Shown in pieces: positions 18,003 through 27,720 of a stretch of DNA of 64,000 nucleotides (position 1 is the stretch's first letter; every line of letters starts with the position of its first letter). The notes under the pieces were generated by a model. It did not search any database and was not told the DNA's origin. It saw only the letters and a list, made by a program, of their open reading frames with translations. Position numbers and translations under genes: made by a program. Source of the stretch: Methanofervidicoccus abyssi (GTDB lineage: Archaea > AGJL01 > Methanococci > Methanococcales > Methanococcaceae); NCBI RefSeq assembly GCF_004310395.1, contig NZ_BFAX01000002.1, forward strand, positions 62,001 through 126,000, read 5' to 3'.

Positions 18003-18583
18003 TTTATCTCTTTTTTATGAGATAACTAAGATTCTACTATTTTAAAATGAAGGGATTGGAAATCCTTTAAAAATCTCTTTTTTTCTTCTTACTAAGAAAT
18101 ATTGAGTCTATTTTAGGTTTAACCATGAAATTTTGATTAATTGTTGTAACTCTAGTTCCCATCAAAGTAGATTATAACCATAAAATTAAATAATAATTAA
18201 GGGTATTTTCCCTGTTTAGAATTTTATTATTTATTATACATATTGTAGTTCTAAATTAGCAATAATAGCTAGAGAATACCTTCCTCCAACGTATACTCTT
18301 AATAATTTGGAAAAGTATGAAGAAGCAATAAAATACTATGATAAAGCGAGTATGAAAAGAGAATAATGAATACAACATTTGGTCAGGGTCTATGAGCCTG
18401 TGGTGATAGGAGAAATTTTTCGCTGGTTTAATAAAAATAGGGGAGATTATTATTTGTTAGAGAGATTGCCAGGGCAAGATAAAATAATATTAAAAAATAA
18501 AAATAAATAAAAAATATAATTAAAATTATTTTAAAATAAAAAATAATAAAAATCGTTAAATAAAATCAAAGGGTGTTGAATAT
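18003..18583. other. Gap at the left edge of the propeller-kinase island
   Basis: This 581 bp stretch holds a TPR-gene remnant (18259-18366) and a second short open stretch from GTG 18400 (36 codons, protein VVIGEIFRWFNKN... with no relative I recognise). The remaining sequence is AT-rich spacer and probably the promoter of the kinase gene. Confidence 0.5.
18259..18366 (+). pseudogene. Fragment of a TPR-repeat protein gene
   Basis: A 35-codon stretch ending in TAA encodes NLEKYEEAIKYYDKAS, a typical tetratricopeptide helix pair with the family's Tyr/Ala/Ala pattern. No start codon with Shine-Dalgarno precedes it. The downstream paralog (21933) has an intact TPR at its N-terminus (YNQGRYKEAIECFDKSL), so this is likely a leftover of a related N-terminal module or gene. 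Confidence 0.5.
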
Positions 18584-21500
18584 ATGTTTTCCAATATCCT
18601 TAGGATCTTTAAAAAGAATAAGCAGGCTGAGGCTGAAAGATCTATAGAGGATGCTAAATCAATAATCTCACAGATAAAATCAAAGTATAACATTAAAGAG
18701 GCTGAATCCCTACTTTCCCTACTATCTCAGGCTGAGGAGGCATTTAATAAGGGAGATTACCTTAAAGCAAAGGAACTTGCTTTAGAGGCTAAGGAGAAAG
18801 CCATTAGTGTGATAGATTATTTCACATTGTGGAAGTATGAGACAGGTGGCCCTGTTACTTCAGTATCAATAACTTCTGATGGGAATTATATAGTTGCAGG
18901 GAGTGGGCATTATGTTTATCTCCTCAACAAAGAAGGGAGGTTATTGTGGAAGTATGAGACAGGTGGCCCTGTTACTTCAGTATCAATAACTCCTGATGGG
19001 AATTATATAGTTGCAGGGAGTGGGCATTATGTTTATCTCCTCAACAAAGAAGGGAGGTTATTGTGGATGTATACGACAGGTCGTGATGTTAAATCAGTAT
19101 CAATAACTCCTGATGGGAATTATATAGTTGCAGGGAGTGGGTATTATGTCTATCTCCTCAACAAAGAAGGGAGGTTATTGTGGATGTATGCGACACGTGG
19201 TGCTGTTCATTCAGTATCAATAACTCCTGATGGGAATTATATAGTTGCAGGGAGTGAGGATGATAATGTCTATCTCCTCAACAGAGAAGGATGGTTATTG
19301 TGGATGTATACGACAGGTCGTGATGTTAAATCAGTATCAATAACTCCTGATGGAGAGTATATAGTGGCAGGTAGTTGGGATGAGAATGTCTATCTCTTCA
19401 ACAAAGAAGGGAGGTTATTGTGGAAATATGAGACAGGTAGTATTGTTTGGTCAGTATCAATAACTCCTGATGGGAATTATATAGTTGCAGGGAATGGTTT
19501 TATTTTGGGTGGTGGTAATGTTTATCTCCTCAACAAAGAAGGGAGGTTATTGTGGAAGTATGAGACAGGTGGCCCTGTTACTTCAGTATCAATAACTCCT
19601 GATGGGAATTATATAGTTGCAGGGAGTAAGGATGATAATGTCTATCTCTTTGCTTCATTAGAAGTAATACCGAAAATAATAGAAAAAATAATAGAAAATA
19701 CCAAGAAAATAATCTCACAGATAAAATCAAAGTATAACATTAAAGAGGCTGAATCCCTACTTTCCCTACTATCTCAGGCTGAGGAGGCATTTAATAAGGG
19801 AGATTACCTTAAAGCAAAGGAACTTGCTTTAAATGCTAAAGAAAGAGCAATAGAAATAAATAATCATGCTGAGGCTGAAAGATCTATAGAGGATGCTAAA
19901 TCAATAATCTCACAGATAAAATCAAAGTATAACATTAAAGAGGCTGAGGATATTCTATCTCAGGCTGAGGAGGCATTTAATAAGGGAGATTACCTTAAAG
20001 CAAAGGAACTTGCTTTAAATGCTAAAGAAAGAGCAATAGAAATAAATAAGCAGGCTGAAGAATTAGAAAAAATAATAAAAAAACTTAACTCAAAAGTAGA
20101 ACTAATCTCCGACTTAGATAAACTACTGGAATCTGCAAAAAAAGAATTCAAAGAAGGAAACTACGAGAATGTTTCACAGTACTTAAATAAATGTGATGAA
20201 TTAATTAATAACGCAAAACCAAAATTAAAAATCAAACTTCTAAATACTTCATTCACTTACAATAAATGGGATAAAGTTAAGATGGAAATAATAAATGAAG
20301 GAAATGCCATAGCAAAGAACATAATATTTGAATTCTCAGAGGATGTTACCGTAAGAAATCTGCCAGAAATTGAAGTTAAACTAAAGAATAAAAAGATAGT
20401 AGAATTCCATCTCAAGCCCAATGTTTTGGGAGAGGTTCCTCTCGAGATTAAAGTAAAATGTAAAGATCACTTAAACAGAGAGTACGAATTCAAGGAAACA
20501 ATAACACTTGAAGTTAAGGAAATAACTGGAGAAATAACTCCAACTCCAGAAACCCCAGAAAAAGGAATATCTCCAGCAGAATTCACTCCAAAGCCAACAA
20601 CTCCAAAAACATTCCCCCCAGAACTTTCAGATAGATATATAGAAGTAGAGTTCATAGGAAAGGGAGGATTTGCAAGGGTATTCAAGGCAAAACGTAAAGA
20701 TGGAAAAGAAGTTGCAGTTAAAATACCAATCTCATTAGACGAATCCACTGGAAAATCCTTCCTCAAAGAAATAGAGAATTGGACTAAGTTAAACCACAAC
20801 AACATTGTAAAGATCTACGACTACAACATCCTCCCAATTCCCTACTTTGAAATGGAGTTATGTGATAAATCATTGGCAGATCTAAAGAAACCCTTAGATC
20901 CAGAGAGGGCAGCATGGATTATATTCAATACAGCAGAGGGATTAAAATACGCCCATTCTCAAAAAATCATACATCGAGATTTAAAGCCTCAAAACATCCT
21001 ACTTAAGGAGGGAGTTCCAAAGATCAGTGATTGGGGATTGAGTAAGGTTGTGGCAGATTCCTCCTCGGCAACTACAACTAAGGCATTCACACCCTACTAT
21101 GCCTCTCCAGAACAGATAAATGGTAAAAGTACAGACAATAGAACAGATATATGGCAATTAGGAGTAATATTCTATGAACTTGTTACTGGAGAACTCCCAT
21201 TTAAGGGCGATACCCTTGTTGAAATAGGAATGGCTATAGTCACAAAGGACCCAACTCCACCTTCAAAAATCAATCCAGAGGCAAAGGAAGTTGAAAAAAT
21301 AATAATGAAATGTTTAGAAAAAGATAAAAAAGAGCGTTATCAATCTGTTATAGATCTACAAAGGGATTTAGCTGAATATCTTGGAATTAAATACAAAGAA
21401 TCCTTAAAGTTAAGTGTAAGTAGAAAGGACTTCAAGAGATCAGTCTACTACTGTTGCGAACTTCTTCTATTAAATATGAAGATTAACAACATGATAGAAG

Positions 21501-21673
21501 CCTACAAATATGCCTCAGATCTACTGAATTATACCAGTGGTGAAGTTAAACAGGAAGTTCAAGAATTATGCGGGGGTTTAAAGTTCAGAATAGAAAATGG
21601 AATAAATACTGTCCCAGAGGAGCTTATCAAAAAGGCTGAGGTCATGGTCCATAAAATAAGGATGGGATTCTGA
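18584..21673 (+). CDS. Ser/Thr protein kinase with seven-repeat beta-propeller and helical modules
   Basis: A 1029-residue multidomain signalling protein, apparently cytosolic (no signal peptide or membrane span). Order: helical hairpin module about residues 8-78 (IISQIKSKYNIKEAE ... AFNKGDYLKAKELAL); seven propeller repeats of about 39 residues, 80-357 (each with SVSITPDGNYIVAGS, VYLLNKEGRLLW); two more helical modules, 360-490; a coiled helical stretch to about 545; a beta-sandwich (CARDB/Ig-like) about 548-645; a Pro/Thr-rich linker about 646-682; and a Hanks-type kinase about 684-935. Catalytic residues are complete: Gly loop GKGGFARV (692-699), Lys713, alpha-C Glu729, HRDLKPQN (797-804), Asp816 in DWG (Trp replaces the usual Phe), and SPE in the activation segment. 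A helical tail follows. ATG start after GGGTGTT. The repeats are near-identical in DNA, which indicates recent amplification or gene conversion. Substrate unknown. Confidence 0.88.
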   Translation: MFSNILRIFKKNKQAEAERSIEDAKSIISQIKSKYNIKEAESLLSLLSQAEEAFNKGDYLKAKELALEAKEKAISVIDYFTLWKYETGGPVTSVSITSDGNYIVAGSGHYVYLLNKEGRLLWKYETGGPVTSVSITPDGNYIVAGSGHYVYLLNKEGRLLWMYTTGRDVKSVSITPDGNYIVAGSGYYVYLLNKEGRLLWMYATRGAVHSVSITPDGNYIVAGSEDDNVYLLNREGWLLWMYTTGRDVKSVSITPDGEYIVAGSWDENVYLFNKEGRLLWKYETGSIVWSVSITPDGNYIVAGNGFILGGGNVYLLNKEGRLLWKYETGGPVTSVSITPDGNYIVAGSKDDNVYLFASLEVIPKIIEKIIENTKKIISQIKSKYNIKEAESLLSLLSQAEEAFNKGDYLKAKELALNAKERAIEINNHAEAERSIEDAKSIISQIKSKYNIKEAEDILSQAEEAFNKGDYLKAKELALNAKERAIEINKQAEELEKIIKKLNSKVELISDLDKLLESAKKEFKEGNYENVSQYLNKCDELINNAKPKLKIKLLNTSFTYNKWDKVKMEIINEGNAIAKNIIFEFSEDVTVRNLPEIEVKLKNKKIVEFHLKPNVLGEVPLEIKVKCKDHLNREYEFKETITLEVKEITGEITPTPETPEKGISPAEFTPKPTTPKTFPPELSDRYIEVEFIGKGGFARVFKAKRKDGKEVAVKIPISLDESTGKSFLKEIENWTKLNHNNIVKIYDYNILPIPYFEMELCDKSLADLKKPLDPERAAWIIFNTAEGLKYAHSQKIIHRDLKPQNILLKEGVPKISDWGLSKVVADSSSATTTKAFTPYYASPEQINGKSTDNRTDIWQLGVIFYELVTGELPFKGDTLVEIGMAIVTKDPTPPSKINPEAKEVEKIIMKCLEKDKKERYQSVIDLQRDLAEYLGIKYKESLKLSVSRKDFKRSVYYCCELLLLNMKINNMIEAYKYASDLLNYTSGEVKQEVQELCGGLKFRIENGINTVPEELIKKAEVMVHKIRMGF
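18832..19660 (+). repeat. Seven near-identical propeller-encoding repeats (about 117 bp each)
   Basis: Inside the kinase gene, a unit of about 117 bp containing TCAATAACTCCTGATGGGAA and GGGAGGTTATTGTGG recurs seven times with few changes, many of them shared with the downstream paralog's repeats. These are coding propeller blades, not a CRISPR array. Confidence 0.9.
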
Positions 21674-21932: not shown

Positions 21933-23588
21933 ATGTCTTCCAATATACTCAGGACCTCTAAAAAGAAAATTGATGGTAAAACAGATGAAGAATGGTTCAA
22001 TGAAGGAGTTGCCCTCTACAATCAGGGAAGATATAAAGAGGCAATAGAATGCTTTGATAAATCTCTGGCTATAAAGGAAGATCCTAAGGTAAGAAAGATT
22101 AGGGAGAAGGCTATAGAAATAAATAAGCAGGCTGAGGAGGCTGAGAGATCTATAGAAAGTGCTAAATCAATAATCTCACAGATAAAATCAAAGTATATCA
22201 TTAAAGATGCTAAGGATATTCTATCTCAGGCTGAGGAGGCATTTAATAAGGGAGATTACCTCAAAGCAAAGAAACTTGCTTTAGAGGCTAAGGAGAAAGC
22301 CATTAGTGTAATAGATTATTTCACATTGTGGAAGTATAAGACAAGTGATGATGTTCTTTCAGTATCAATAACTCCTGATGGGAATTATATAGTTGCGGGG
22401 AGTAAGGATAATAATGTTTACCTCTTCAACAGAGAAGGGAGGTTATTGTGGAAATATGAGACAGGAGATCATGTTTATTCAGTATCAATAACTCCTGATG
22501 GGAATTATGTAGTTGCGGGGAGTAAGGATAATAATGTTTACCTCTTCAACAGAGAAGGGAGGTTATTGTGGAAGTATAAGACAGGTGGTAATGTTTATTC
22601 AGTATCAATAACTTCTGATGGGAATTATATAGTTGCGGGGAGTAAGGATAATGTTGTTCATTCAGTATTAATAACTCCTGATGGGAATTATATAGTTGTA
22701 GGTAGTATGAATATAGCAGGTAGTAAGAATAAGAATGTTTACCTCTTCAACAGAAAAGGGAGGTTATTGTGGAAGTATTATACAGATAGTGATGTTGAAT
22801 CAGTATCAATAACTCCTGATGGGAATTATGTAGTTGCGGGGTGGGGGTATAATATTTACTTCTTCAACAGAGAAGGGAAGTTATTGTGGAAGTATAAGAC
22901 ACGTGGTGCTGTTGAATCAGTATCAATAACTCCTGATGGGAATTATGTAGTTGCGGGGAGTGGGTATTGTGTTTACCTCTTCAACAAAGAAGGGAGGTTA
23001 TTGTGGAAGTATAATACAGGTAGTGTTGTTCCTTCAGTATCAATAACTCCTGATGGGAATTATATAGTTGCAGGTCGTTGGGGTGGTAATGTTTACCTCT
23101 TCAACAGAGAAGGGAAGTTATTGTGGAAGTATAAGACAGGTGGTCGGGTTTATTCAGTATCAATAACTCCTGATGGGAATTATATAGTTGCAGGTAGTTG
23201 GGATAAGAATGTTTATCTCTTCAACAAAGAAGGGAGGTTATTGTGGAAGTATTATACAGGTAGTGATGTTGAATCAGTATCAATAACTCCTGATGGGAAT
23301 TATATAGTTGCGGGGAGTGATTATATTTGGAGTGGTAATGTTTATCTCTTTGCTTCATTACAAGGAATACAAAAAATAATAGAAAATACCAAGAAAATAA
23401 TCTCACAGATAAAATCAAAGTATAACATTAAAGAGGCTGAATCTCTACTTTCCCTACTATCTCAGGCTGAGGAGGCATTTAATAAGGGAGATTACCTCAA
23501 AGCAAAGAAACTTGCTTTAGAGGCTAAAGAAAGAGCAATAGAAATAAATAAGCAGGTTGAAGAATTAGAAAACTTAATCCAAAAGTAG
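21933..23588 (+). CDS. Kinase-less beta-propeller/TPR paralog, truncated at its 3' end
   Basis: A 551-residue tandem relative of the upstream kinase. Domains: a TPR at about residues 15-55, a helical module about 65-125, a propeller about 130-475 with nine SVSITPDGNY-type starts (the third repeat is cut short after AGSKDN and runs straight into the fourth, and the second Ser of the fourth start is Leu), and a last helical module about 478-545. The frame ends at a TAG created by a small deletion; beyond it the sequence still matches the kinase gene's helical and beta-sandwich parts but in broken frames (23589-23954). So the present protein is a cut-down version of a formerly longer one. ATG start after GGGTGATGAATAT, nearly the same leader as the kinase gene. 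It may still be made as a scaffold or decoy, or be an expressed pseudogene. Confidence 0.75.
   Translation: MSSNILRTSKKKIDGKTDEEWFNEGVALYNQGRYKEAIECFDKSLAIKEDPKVRKIREKAIEINKQAEEAERSIESAKSIISQIKSKYIIKDAKDILSQAEEAFNKGDYLKAKKLALEAKEKAISVIDYFTLWKYKTSDDVLSVSITPDGNYIVAGSKDNNVYLFNREGRLLWKYETGDHVYSVSITPDGNYVVAGSKDNNVYLFNREGRLLWKYKTGGNVYSVSITSDGNYIVAGSKDNVVHSVLITPDGNYIVVGSMNIAGSKNKNVYLFNRKGRLLWKYYTDSDVESVSITPDGNYVVAGWGYNIYFFNREGKLLWKYKTRGAVESVSITPDGNYVVAGSGYCVYLFNKEGRLLWKYNTGSVVPSVSITPDGNYIVAGRWGGNVYLFNREGKLLWKYKTGGRVYSVSITPDGNYIVAGSWDKNVYLFNKEGRLLWKYYTGSDVESVSITPDGNYIVAGSDYIWSGNVYLFASLQGIQKIIENTKKIISQIKSKYNIKEAESLLSLLSQAEEAFNKGDYLKAKKLALEAKERAIEINKQVEELENLIQK
22320..23350 (+). repeat. Propeller-encoding repeat array of the paralog
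   Basis: Nine starts of the same unit as in the kinase gene (most about 117 bp), eight of them essentially full length. The join between repeats three and four (about 22640-22690) looks like an internal deletion within one unit, the expected product of unequal recombination between identical repeats. Confidence 0.85.
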
Positions 23589-23954
23589 AACTAATCTCTG
23601 ACTTAGATAAACTACTGGAATCTGCAAAAAAAGAATTCAAAGAAGGAAACTACGAGAATGTTTCACAGTACTTAAATAAATGTAAGGAATTAATTAATAA
23701 CGCAAAAAATAAATGAAGGAAATGCCATAGCAAAGAACATAATATTTGAATTCTCAGAGGATGTTACCGTAAGAAATCTGCCAGAAATTGAAGTTAAACT
23801 AAAGAATAAAAAGATAGTAGAATTCTATCTCAAGCCCAATGTTCTGGGAGAGGTTCCTCTCGAGATTAAAGTAAAATGTAAAGACCACTTAAACAGAGAG
23901 TACGAATTCAAGGAAACAATAATACTTGAAGTTAAGGAAATATTTATGGTTTAA
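23589..23954 (+). pseudogene. Decayed helical/beta-sandwich remnant of the paralog
   Basis: This stretch is almost identical to 20098-20520 of the kinase gene but lacks an intact frame. A deletion relative to GAATTAGAAAAAATAATAAA in the kinase gene brings a TAG into frame; a second deletion of roughly 80 bp after AACGCAAAA removes the start of the beta-sandwich and gives a TGA (AATAAATGA). After that the reading frame continues through DVTVRNLPEIEVKL and KCKDHLNREYEF to a TAA at 23952-23954. Reference residues and order are the same as in the intact copy. Confidence 0.85.
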
Positions 23955-24010
23955 CTTAATCCAATTCTCTATTTCTTTAAGGAAGGATTTTCCTGTGGAT
24001 TCATCTAATT
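23948..24010 (-). pseudogene. Inverted fragment of the kinase domain
   Basis: Read on the reverse strand, this 63-base piece matches 20734-20795 of the kinase gene (the LDESTGKSFLKEIENWTKLN region that carries the alpha-C glutamate) with only a handful of mismatches. It abuts the decayed forward remnant, so the paralog once had a kinase domain that was lost through an inversion with deletion. It lies just 25 bases from the carB2 stop codon. Confidence 0.85.
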
Positions 24011-24034
24011 AGCGAAGATGGAGAGAACAGACTC

Positions 24035-25888
24035 CTATTCTCTATCTTCTTCAACCTCTATTTTTTCTATACTACATTCTATCTCATCTAAGGAATAAAC
24101 TCCAATACTTCCATCCTTAACAGATTTTATAGCCTCAATAGCTGAAAGTGCTCCTCTTATAGTGGTTATATATGGTATATTGAATTCTACTGCAGCTCTC
24201 CTTATGTAGTATCCCTCAGATTTAGCCTTGCCTCCAGAAGCTGTATTTATAATTAGATCTATCTCTCTTTTCTGGATCAACTGAAGTATATTAGCTGTAG
24301 AACCCTCAGATATTTTCTTAACCACCTTTACCTCTATCCCTTCCCTTCTAATTACCTCTGCAGTGCCTCTAGTAGCCGCTATGTTGAAGCCTAACTCCTT
24401 AAATTTCCTGGCAATATGTGGTGCATACTTTTTATCCTTATCCTTTAAACTGATGAACACAGTGCCAGAAATTGGGAGTTTCATATTTGCTGAGAGTTGT
24501 GCTTTGTAATACGCTTTACCAAAATCTACATCTATTCCTATTGCCTCTCCAGTGGATTTCATCTCTGGGCCTAAGACAGGATCCACTCCAGGTAACTTCT
24601 GGAAGGGAAAGACCGCTTCCTTTACACTTACATACTTACTCCTTACAAAGCCTACATATCCCATACTCCTTAATTTCTCTCCCATTATAACTCTTGTGGC
24701 GATTTTAGCCAGAGGTATTCCTATGGATTTACTTACATAAGGTATAGTTCTACTTGCCCTCGGGTTGGCCTCCAACACATAGACGGTATCATCCTTAATA
24801 GCAAATTGGATATTTATCAGTCCAATTACTCCCAACCCCTTACTTATCTTTACAGTATACTTTACTATCTTCTTTATAATATCCTCTGAGAGGTTCTGAG
24901 GTGGTAGAACACAGGCACTGTCTCCACTGTGCACCCCTGCCTCTTCTATATGTTCCATTATACCTCCTATAAATACATCTTCCCCATCACATACAGCATC
25001 CACATCTACCTCTATAGCATCCTCTAAGAACTTGTCTATCAGTATGGGATGTTCAGGAGATACCTTAACCGCTTCTCTTATGTAGTCTCTCAATCCCTCC
25101 TCACTATACACAATCTCCATAGCTCTACCTCCCAATACATAGGAAGGTCTGACAAGGACGGGGTAACCTATCCTTCTTGCAACTTCTATAGCCTCCTTCT
25201 CGTTATATACTGTAGCACCCTCTGGTTGTGGTATTCCCAATCTCTTTAAAAATTTCGAGAACTCCTCCCTGTCCTCAGCTAGATGGATGGATTCAGGAGA
25301 TGTACCCAGTATCTTCACATCTGTTTTACGGTACAACTCCATAGCGAGGTTTATGGCAGTCTGCCCTCCAAATTGCACTATAATACCTAAGAGGTTTCCA
25401 TCCCTATTCTCATTTTCAATAACGTTCATTACCTCTTCAAATGTTAAGGGTTCAAAGTAGAGTTTATCTGAGGTATCGTAATCTGTGGAGACTGTCTCAG
25501 GGTTGTTGTTTATTATTATAGCCTCAATCCCCATCTCCTTCAGTGCCCATACTGCATGAACTGTGGAGTAGTCAAACTCTACTCCCTGTCCTATTCTGAT
25601 AGGCCCTGAACCTAAGATTATTACCTTCTCCTTCTTTGATGGAATACTTTCGTTCTGTTCCTCGTAGAATAACTGTTCATAACAGGAGTAGAAGTAAGGA
25701 GTTTTAGCCTCAAACTCTGCTGCACAGGTATCTACCATCTTATATACAGGGAGAATGTTTAGTTCCTTTCTTAATTCTCTGATCTCCATTTCATCTTTCT
25801 TCAGGAGATGGGCTATCTGTTTATCTGAAAAACCTAACATTTTACACTCTAAAAGTATCTCCTTAAGTGAATCTTTATCTATACCCAT
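24035..25888 (-). CDS. carB2: Carbamoyl-phosphate synthase large subunit, C-terminal part
   Basis: CarB2 (617 residues) carries the second ATP-grasp unit, which phosphorylates carbamate, and the MGS-like allosteric domain. A helical oligomerisation segment (about 1-75) precedes ILGSGPIRIGQGVEFDYS (about 90-107), the grasp motifs VRPSYVLGGRAMEIV (about 245-259) and EANPRASRTIP (about 375-385), and the MGS domain (about 480-610, with ATRGTAEVIRREG and TASGGKAKSEGYYIRR). Together with CarB1 it equals one bacterial CarB; the split is known from Methanocaldococcus jannaschii and relatives. ATG with GGTGAT and a 3-base spacer; 18 bases downstream of carB1, so co-transcribed. Confidence 0.95.
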   Translation of the reverse strand: MGIDKDSLKEILLECKMLGFSDKQIAHLLKKDEMEIRELRKELNILPVYKMVDTCAAEFEAKTPYFYSCYEQLFYEEQNESIPSKKEKVIILGSGPIRIGQGVEFDYSTVHAVWALKEMGIEAIIINNNPETVSTDYDTSDKLYFEPLTFEEVMNVIENENRDGNLLGIIVQFGGQTAINLAMELYRKTDVKILGTSPESIHLAEDREEFSKFLKRLGIPQPEGATVYNEKEAIEVARRIGYPVLVRPSYVLGGRAMEIVYSEEGLRDYIREAVKVSPEHPILIDKFLEDAIEVDVDAVCDGEDVFIGGIMEHIEEAGVHSGDSACVLPPQNLSEDIIKKIVKYTVKISKGLGVIGLINIQFAIKDDTVYVLEANPRASRTIPYVSKSIGIPLAKIATRVIMGEKLRSMGYVGFVRSKYVSVKEAVFPFQKLPGVDPVLGPEMKSTGEAIGIDVDFGKAYYKAQLSANMKLPISGTVFISLKDKDKKYAPHIARKFKELGFNIAATRGTAEVIRREGIEVKVVKKISEGSTANILQLIQKREIDLIINTASGGKAKSEGYYIRRAAVEFNIPYITTIRGALSAIEAIKSVKDGSIGVYSLDEIECSIEKIEVEEDRE

Positions 25889-25906
25889 AATATCACCTGA
25901 ATGAAC

Positions 25907-27346
25907 CTATATCAGATTCGCTAGATATTCCAACTTCTTCTTCATATCAACGATCTTTTTTATTCTCTCTATAAAGAATGGATGTATAGAGGTTAATTCA
26001 GATATCTCTGAGACTGTCCAGCCTCTATCTAATGCCTCTGCAATTACGAAAATCCTCTCATCTGTTGGATTCTTTAGTAGATACTCTATCTCCTCGTTGC
26101 TGTATCTTTTCTCCTTCCCATCTCCAATAATACCATCCCTTCCAATATCTAAACTCCTGATAGCTTTCTGGAGGGCCTCCTCGAAGGTCCTACCTATCGC
26201 CATAACTTCTCCAGTAGATTTCATAGAAGTTCCTAAGGTTCTATCTACGGTCCTAAATTTGTCAAAGGGCCACCTTGGGATCTTTACAACTACATAGTCT
26301 ATTGTAGGCTCAAAGACTGCAGGTGTCTCCTTAGTTATATCGTTCATAATCTCGTCTAATGTCATACCTATTGCTATCTTGGCTGCTATCTTTGCAATGG
26401 GATACCCTGTTGCCTTACTTGCCAGTGCAGAACTCCTACTTACCCTGGGATTAACTTCTATAATTCTATACTCTGTCATATCTTCATTAACTGCAAACTG
26501 TATATTACAACCTCCTTCTATGGAGAGATGCCTGATAACATTCAAGGAGGCATTTCTCAGTATTTGGTGCATCTCATCACTAAGTGTCTGGGAAGGTGCA
26601 GTAACTATACTCTCTCCTGTGTGTATCCCCATAGGATCTATATTCTCCATATTACATACAACAATACAGTTGTCTTTACTGTCTCTCATAACCTCGTACT
26701 CGTACTCCCTCCACCCGAGAACACTCTCGTCTATTAACACCTGATTTATCAGGGAGTACGTCAAACCTCTCTTCACTATCTCCTTCAACTCTTCTTCGTT
26801 ATAAGCAATTCCTCCTCCAGTACCTCCTAAGGTAAAGGCAGGCCTTACAATCACAGGATAACCTAACTCAGAGACTACTTCCAATGCTTCCTCTAGGGAA
26901 TTTATAGCATAACATTTAGTTGTGGGTTCTTCTATTTCATCCATCGCTTTCTTAAATAAATCCCTGTCTTCACAGGTTTCTATGGTTTTAATCCCTGAGC
27001 CTAGAAGTTCTACATCGTACTTCTCCAGAATACCTCTACTGTGTAGTTCCATCGCCAAGTTTAAGGCAGTTTGTCCTCCCATAGTTGGAAGTATTGCATC
27101 AGGTCTCTCTTTCTCTATGATCTTCTCTACAATATTCACATCTAGGGGTTCCAGATAAACTTTATCGGCAATACTTTTATCTGTCTGAATAGAGGCAGGG
27201 TTAGAATTTACTAAAATAGTATATATTCCCTCTTCTCTTAGAGATTTACAGGCCTGAGAACCTGAATAGTCAAACTCTGCAGCCTGACCGATTACAATAG
27301 GGCCAGATCCTAATATCATCACACGCTTAATATCCTCCCTTTTCAA
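25907..27346 (-). CDS. carB1: Carbamoyl-phosphate synthase large subunit, N-terminal part
   Basis: CarB1 (479 residues) is the first ATP-grasp unit, which forms carboxyphosphate. It shows [19 protein letters not shown] (about residues 9-27), [20 protein letters not shown] (about 155-174), EYEYEVMRD and [20 protein letters not shown] (about 290-310). The longest frame is 14 codons longer, but TTG 27346 is preceded by GAGGTGAA with a 3-base spacer and gives the natural N-terminus MKREDIKRV. Unlike in M. jannaschii, where the halves are separated by other genes, carB1 and carB2 are adjacent here. Confidence 0.95.
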
Positions 27347-27720
27347 AATTTCACCTCTAAAAAATAGAGTAATTAAGTTATTTATCACTATAGTTAATAT
27401 ATTTATAAATCTTAGTTTCTACCGAAGTAATAGTTTAAAATAATAAATAAGGGCATATAAATAATGATAAAATTAGGAAAAGATGAAAAAGATTTTTAAA
27501 ATATAATTAAAGAAAAGTTTATGTTTCTCCATAAAACTATTGTAGGTTAAAATATAAGAACTATTTTACTATTTTAGGACGATTTTCTGATAATCTTTCA
27601 TAATATCACAATAAATTTCTGTCTCTTTAGTGTCCAGAATTTTTGTCTGTTTTATTTTAATTCTCCCAAGATTTTTATTATTATATTTATTATTAACTTT
27701 TAATCTCTCTAAATTTTATC
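27347..27720. other. Intergenic gap between sucC and carB1
   Basis: The 374 bp are AT-rich and contain no gene. TCTGTCTCTTTAGTGTCCAG (about 27618-27637) resembles one segment of the long intergenic repeat family in worn form. The promoter of the carB operon should lie near 27370-27430. Confidence 0.45.

Follow-up and report, generated by a model that had tools for sequence, protein, structure and literature searches.

Within the window, i.e. the whole stretch of 64,000 nucleotides analysed here, an intact ORF (18584..21673, + strand) encodes a 1029-aa protein, P0001, in which a propeller and an Ig-like domain are joined to a Hanks-type kinase, and the question raised by this locus is which cellular system such a kinase could belong to. 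The ORF has an ATG start, and the probable ribosome-binding site AAAGGGTG (18568..18575, + strand) lies 8 nt 5' of it. All the modules proposed by the sequence-only reading, namely hairpins, a seven-repeat propeller, a beta-sandwich, a Pro/Thr linker and a Hanks kinase in one protein, are recovered by Pfam and AlphaFold. From the N-terminus, and all on the + strand, they are a helical hairpin module (aa 2-78; 18587..18817; AlphaFold model), a seven-bladed WD40/PQQ-type propeller with near-identical blades and variable d-a and b-c loops (aa 81-360; 18824..19663; profiles, repeats and model), repeated helical hairpins (aa 362-543; 19667..20212; AlphaFold model and profile search), an Ig-like (CARDB-like) beta-sandwich (aa 547-647; 20222..20524), a Pro/Thr-rich linker predicted to be disordered in the AlphaFold model (aa 648-676; 20525..20611) and the Ser/Thr kinase domain (aa 681-930; 20624..21373; profile, PDB and alignment). 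Two features go beyond that reading: a conserved C-terminal helical domain (aa 931-1029; 21374..21670; alignment and AlphaFold model) and the kinship of P0001 with the neighbouring ORF.

The AlphaFold model, based on an alignment of 10 sequences, has a pTM of 0.40, the propeller, sandwich and C-terminal domain being good and the surroundings of the active site poor. The sandwich is modelled at a pLDDT of about 85, and its match to CARDB is sub-threshold in P0001 (E=0.019) and above the cut-off in a Methanomicrobiales homologue, L085 (8.5e-5). A Kyte-Doolittle scan detects no hydrophobic, transmembrane (TM) segment in P0001, in agreement with the cytosolic location initially proposed; by contrast, the same scan does find such a segment in L085-L087 and in the TM kinase encoded by this genome.

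Judged by its sequence, P0001 is a complete Hanks-type Ser/Thr kinase, the activity of which is predicted. PF00069 matches aa 686-920 (E=7e-51), and the catalytic set listed earlier is found in full, with Lys713, Glu729, HRDLKPQN (797-804) and Asp816, together with an APE-type motif that reads S841-P-E. The DWG triplet that replaces DFG (Asp816-Trp817-Gly818) had been pointed out as an oddity: it is indeed present, but it is found in all 12 sequences of an alignment that spans two archaeal orders, and is thus a signature of the family and no defect. The catalytic residues are, like DWG, invariant or nearly so in these 12 relatives, the paralog L083 having HLD. A pseudokinase on account of DWG is ruled out, as the triplet is family-wide and all other catalytic residues are kept. 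Since the catalytic region is poorly modelled with the 10-sequence alignment (pLDDT below 50 at aa 715-761, 795-799 and 813-835), it is the sequence evidence that supports the kinase fold. This kinase also stands outside the RIO/Bud32 set, as had been claimed: in genomes devoid of it, all Pkinase matches are weak, scoring about 18-55 bits.

Known kinases of related build differ from P0001 in several respects. In PDB and NCBIfam, the kinase domains nearest in sequence are those of PknB/Stk1 PASTA kinases, PknB chains being the nearest solved relatives (E=1.6e-45), but P0001 contains neither a TM segment nor PASTA repeats and scores 227 bits for a cut-off of 450. PkwA of Thermomonospora and the AfsK-type kinases likewise fuse a Ser/Thr kinase to a propeller, which is highly repetitive in PkwA. 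Their kinase is N-terminal, whereas in P0001 it is the propeller that is N-terminal, and Ig-like and C-terminal domains are present in addition; the AfsK model gives 102 bits, for a cut-off of 1300. A defence-system kinase was also considered and rejected, as the PADLOC matches (PD-T4-6, mad6 and Stk2) are of the generic Pkinase type and lack partner genes.

A first answer comes from the other members of the family. In the genome of the window (G000, 99.67% complete), contig 4 encodes two further family kinases and contains an ESCRT locus, whose genes are, in order, cl5, cl4, two ESCRT-III-like genes, a MIT-AAA-Vps4_C ATPase, a TM propeller kinase, a DUF4013 protein, a second kinase and PP2C. 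The same locus, whole or partial, is found in the Methanococcales G003, G014, G025, G028, G030, G032, G033, G034 and G035. With profiles, Vps4_C is above the cut-off in the ATPase beside the ESCRT-III-like genes, and PP2C is detected in the locus. We infer the ESCRT-III identity of these genes from the presence of two copies beside Vps4 and from combined scores, none of which is individually significant: Foldseek gives CdvB2, CdvB, Vipp1, CHMP and PspA as top matches, all with E of at least 0.28, a profile search gives CdvB2/CdvB at E of about 0.07, NCBIfam CdvB1/B2 has E=0.009 and Pfam Snf7 matches one protein out of 18, with E=0.06. A 593-aa ORF of the ESCRT region of G014 (L059:14762-16543), near two kinase genes, contains the C-terminal helical domain and has no recognised kinase match.

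This locus corresponds to the main-clade archaeal ESCRT loci, all of which contain Vps4, ESCRT-III, arCOG09748 and arCOG08177 and many of which, including those of Methanococcales, contain an STK and an STP (Makarova et al., 2024; PMC10936438); we match cl4 and cl5 to these two arCOGs from where they lie, how long they are and which domain layout has been published. The same work describes STK/STP genes associated with ESCRT whose products have an Ig-like domain and a helical domain at the C-terminus, among them those of Methanococcales. P0001 resembles these STKs by its Hanks kinase, by the Ig-like domain, here the modelled beta-sandwich, that precedes it, and by its small C-terminal helical domain, and its relatives adjoin ESCRT-III, Vps4, arCOG09748/08177-like and PP2C genes in the same taxa. 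The C-terminal helical domain is common to in-locus and orphan kinases, as seen by alignment and search. A PCI-like domain has been described at the same place in ESCRT-linked archaeal STKs (PMC10936438); PCI kinship of aa 931-1029 was not recovered here. The initial view of an isolated, undescribed signalling system has therefore to be amended: no phosphatase adjoins this copy of the gene, as had been noted, but its clade is found elsewhere in ESCRT-III/Vps4/PP2C loci, and this association is published (PMC10936438).

The position of P0001 within the family is given by a midpoint-rooted kinase tree of 34 rows, some of which have long branches. The TM kinases of the locus form group A, the short second kinases group B, and the window kinase falls in clade C (support 96/90), which comprises in-locus kinases of G014, G034 and the Methanomicrobiales MAG L085, as well as an orphan expansion in the genus of the window. 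On the evidence of this tree, P0001 is phylogenetic kin of in-locus ESCRT kinases. It is 63% identical, across kinase and C-terminus, to the protein of L085, where the gene order is kinase, ESCRT-III a, ESCRT-III b and Vps4.

The distribution of the family points in the same direction. When strong Pkinase or P0001 matches are taken as presence of the kinase family, 10 of the 27 Methanococcales genomes with a completeness of at least 90% contain this family together with ESCRT-III, and the other 17 contain neither (Fisher p=1.2e-7, ignoring shared ancestry); among all 36 Methanococcales genomes, the kinase is found without ESCRT-III only in G026, which is 81% complete. A phylum-level homologue search gives matches in the same Methanococcales genomes only. 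In the order of L085 (80 genomes), ESCRT-III is present in 6 genomes, the C-terminal domain in 10 and both in 5 (p=6e-5, again ignoring shared ancestry), and in all five double-positive genomes a C-terminal-domain copy lies on the same contig as ESCRT-III, within about 13 kb. ESCRT-III was not found in the other five of the 10 C-terminal-domain genomes of this order, two of which show short frames only, indicating that the link of the family to ESCRT is not a strict one.

P0001 itself lies outside the ESCRT locus, on another contig and between an S8e-like gene and carB, and contains no TM segment, in both respects unlike most described ESCRT STKs, which counts against its attribution to ESCRT. 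One alternative is that P0001 is an independent cytosolic sensor kinase, sharing its ancestry with the ESCRT-locus kinases but acting on other targets, such as metabolism or envelope stress, with no ESCRT coupling. Its orphan position, its soluble nature, the existence of several orphan paralogs per genome (G028, G030 and G031) and the fact that, in the order of L085, some genomes have the C-terminal domain but no ESCRT-III would all be consistent with it. We nevertheless consider this alternative rather unlikely, as the family never occurs without an ESCRT locus in Methanococcales that are at least 90% complete, and as its kinase and C-terminal domain still share about 60% identity with in-operon homologues of another order. 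The reading that we favour, and to which we give an even chance, is that P0001 is a detached, soluble Ser/Thr kinase of the main-clade ESCRT-locus family, functionally coupled to ESCRT and bearing a fast-evolving recognition propeller.

Downstream genes that are common to L078, a 97%-identical relative of P0001, and to L083, the next closest one, are absent from the window, so that the P0001 gene has moved or has been duplicated. The following ORF (21933..23588, + strand; 551 aa, propeller only) is, from its profiles and blastn matches, a recent truncated duplicate of the kinase gene, the leaders of both being near-identical, AAAGGGTG(T/A)TGAATATATG. The decayed rest of the duplicate (23589..24012, + strand; blastn and sequence) contains, after the stop, out-of-frame hairpin and Ig sequence (23704-23942, 97.9% identical at the DNA level to 20286-20524) and an inverted 69-bp kinase-derived fragment (23944-24012, 91% identical; both by blastn). 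Beside it, carB is split into two adjacent ORFs of 617 and 493 aa that are 18 nt apart (window 24035-27388).

This duplicate, with its decayed tail and inverted fragment, as well as numerous partial copies in G030 and G034, could also be the signs of a decaying repeat-rich gene family, in which near-identical blades would result from recent duplication without functional diversification; highly repetitive propellers are indeed known to arise continually (PMC9218822). This explanation is very improbable, since the kinase core is strongly constrained and the changes gather at few blade positions and are not spread across the blade.

The propeller itself consists of seven repeats of 39-44 aa, with 28 modelled strands (pLDDT of about 95), and its best solved structural match is a 7-bladed WRAP design (TM-score of 0.91 on target). 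When 68 blades are aligned, from ten proteins of G000 and of three genomes of the same genus, W3, Y5, T17, D19, G20, Y22 and A25 never vary, and the most variable positions, 10 and 12, flank an invariant V11. In the b-c loop, the variable positions 28 and 30 flank D29 (39 of the 46 loops that have five residues). In the standard WD40 topology, d-a and b-c loops lie on one face and a-b and c-d loops on the opposite one. With faces assigned from this general topology, the variable loops share one face of the propeller and the invariant a-b and c-d loops the other. Furthermore, pN/pS (uncorrected counts) is 1.66 at positions 8, 9, 10 and 12 (1.33-2.10 by bootstrap over genes) versus 0.40 in the core, an excess that is suggestive and not a clean test, because these positions were picked from the same data and it is thus partly selected for.

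Paralogs of one genome also appear to exchange blades, which thus undergo concerted evolution: blade cores resemble each other more between different genes of one genome (0.90) than between genomes (0.86; permutation p=0.004). In G000, the TM kinase has a secreted propeller whose blade cores share 0.93 with those of the cytosolic propeller of P0001, although the kinases are just 44% identical. Homogenised blades with one face kept diverse would make the propeller a renewable recognition surface. Diverse hotspots on otherwise conserved repeats have been described in prokaryotic highly repetitive WD40 proteins (PMC5587647). P0001 had been proposed to be a receptor whose propeller senses a ligand or partner and controls the kinase; in the reading favoured here, a partner would bind at the variable face, and the activation of the kinase by a ligand is a step that we infer.

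The same pattern, with near-identical repeats, diversifying positions (here chosen post hoc) on one face and exchange among paralogs, is that of the HET-D/HET-E NWD family of Podospora, where variable pairs also flank a constrained residue (PMC1805685). P0001 could accordingly be a non-self or partner receptor of HET-D/E type, with a propeller that detects a surface protein of foreign, viral or variable nature and a kinase that triggers ESCRT-based vesicle release, membrane repair or cell exclusion. HET-D and HET-E are, however, fungal NACHT NTPase receptors, whereas P0001 is an archaeal protein kinase with blades of about 40 aa, known here from its sequence, and no NACHT domain is present among its Pfam matches. 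In the ESCRT locus of L085, the gene directly 3' of Vps4 (L085:13698-14462) encodes a TIR domain (PF13676, 3e-20) preceded by an MIT-like N-terminus, which is 27% identical to the neighbouring Vps4 (E=2e-7); a TrkA_N-RyR protein follows. This MIT-TIR fusion is a possible immune link. It would speak for such a receptor, but TIR adjoins ESCRT genes in only one of 10 genomes checked, no defence genes are recognised at the window locus, the defence-library matches are the generic ones mentioned above, and the variable positions could as well reflect the sorting of many endogenous partners. We regard a HET-type receptor as distinctly improbable.

Under the favoured reading of a detached ESCRT-family kinase, the propeller of P0001 would bind a protein or surface partner via its variable face, and the helical hairpins and the Ig-like domain would relay or scaffold this binding. 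The kinase would then phosphorylate proteins of the ESCRT-III/Vps4 module, or factors associated with it, whose genes lie elsewhere (contig 4 of G000), and the PP2C phosphatase of the ESCRT locus would oppose it, making the reaction reversible. The C-terminal helical domain might dock P0001 to the ESCRT module or to itself. Recombination within and between paralogs would homogenise the blades, only few positions on one face staying diverse. A broader proposal, which we consider unlikely, is that methanogens possess a set of propeller receptors, located inside as well as outside the membrane, that diversifies itself by recombining blades; it would serve to recognise variable proteins of viruses, neighbouring cells or cargo and to switch ESCRT-III/Vps4 membrane remodelling by reversible phosphorylation. 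If true, archaea would have a counterpart of HET-type recognition that is connected to ESCRT.

The STK-ESCRT association is already published (PMC10936438), and our results suggest that the new elements are the diversifying, blade-exchanging propeller, cytosolic in P0001, and the soluble orphan expansion in the genus of the window. No publication on either was found in the open-licence literature, and a search of the literature on Methanothermococcus gave none on such proteins. Methanogens that divide with FtsZ carry ESCRT loci of no known trigger or function, and a kinase family that co-occurs with ESCRT, with a phosphatase in the locus and a fast-evolving binding face, offers a concrete handle on these loci; a diversifying propeller would extend the HET-E-like evolution of recognition to archaea.

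Two other arrangements of these domains are observed. In the paralog of L063 (7130-11011), 14 repeat anchors, i.e. about two tandem propellers, precede the hairpins, Ig-like domain and kinase. Finally, a second type of operon (L064:6655-11272 and L071:9585-14681), devoid of ESCRT genes, encodes a divergent soluble kinase, a propeller-only protein and PP2C, which suggests that the two modules can reside on separate subunits.
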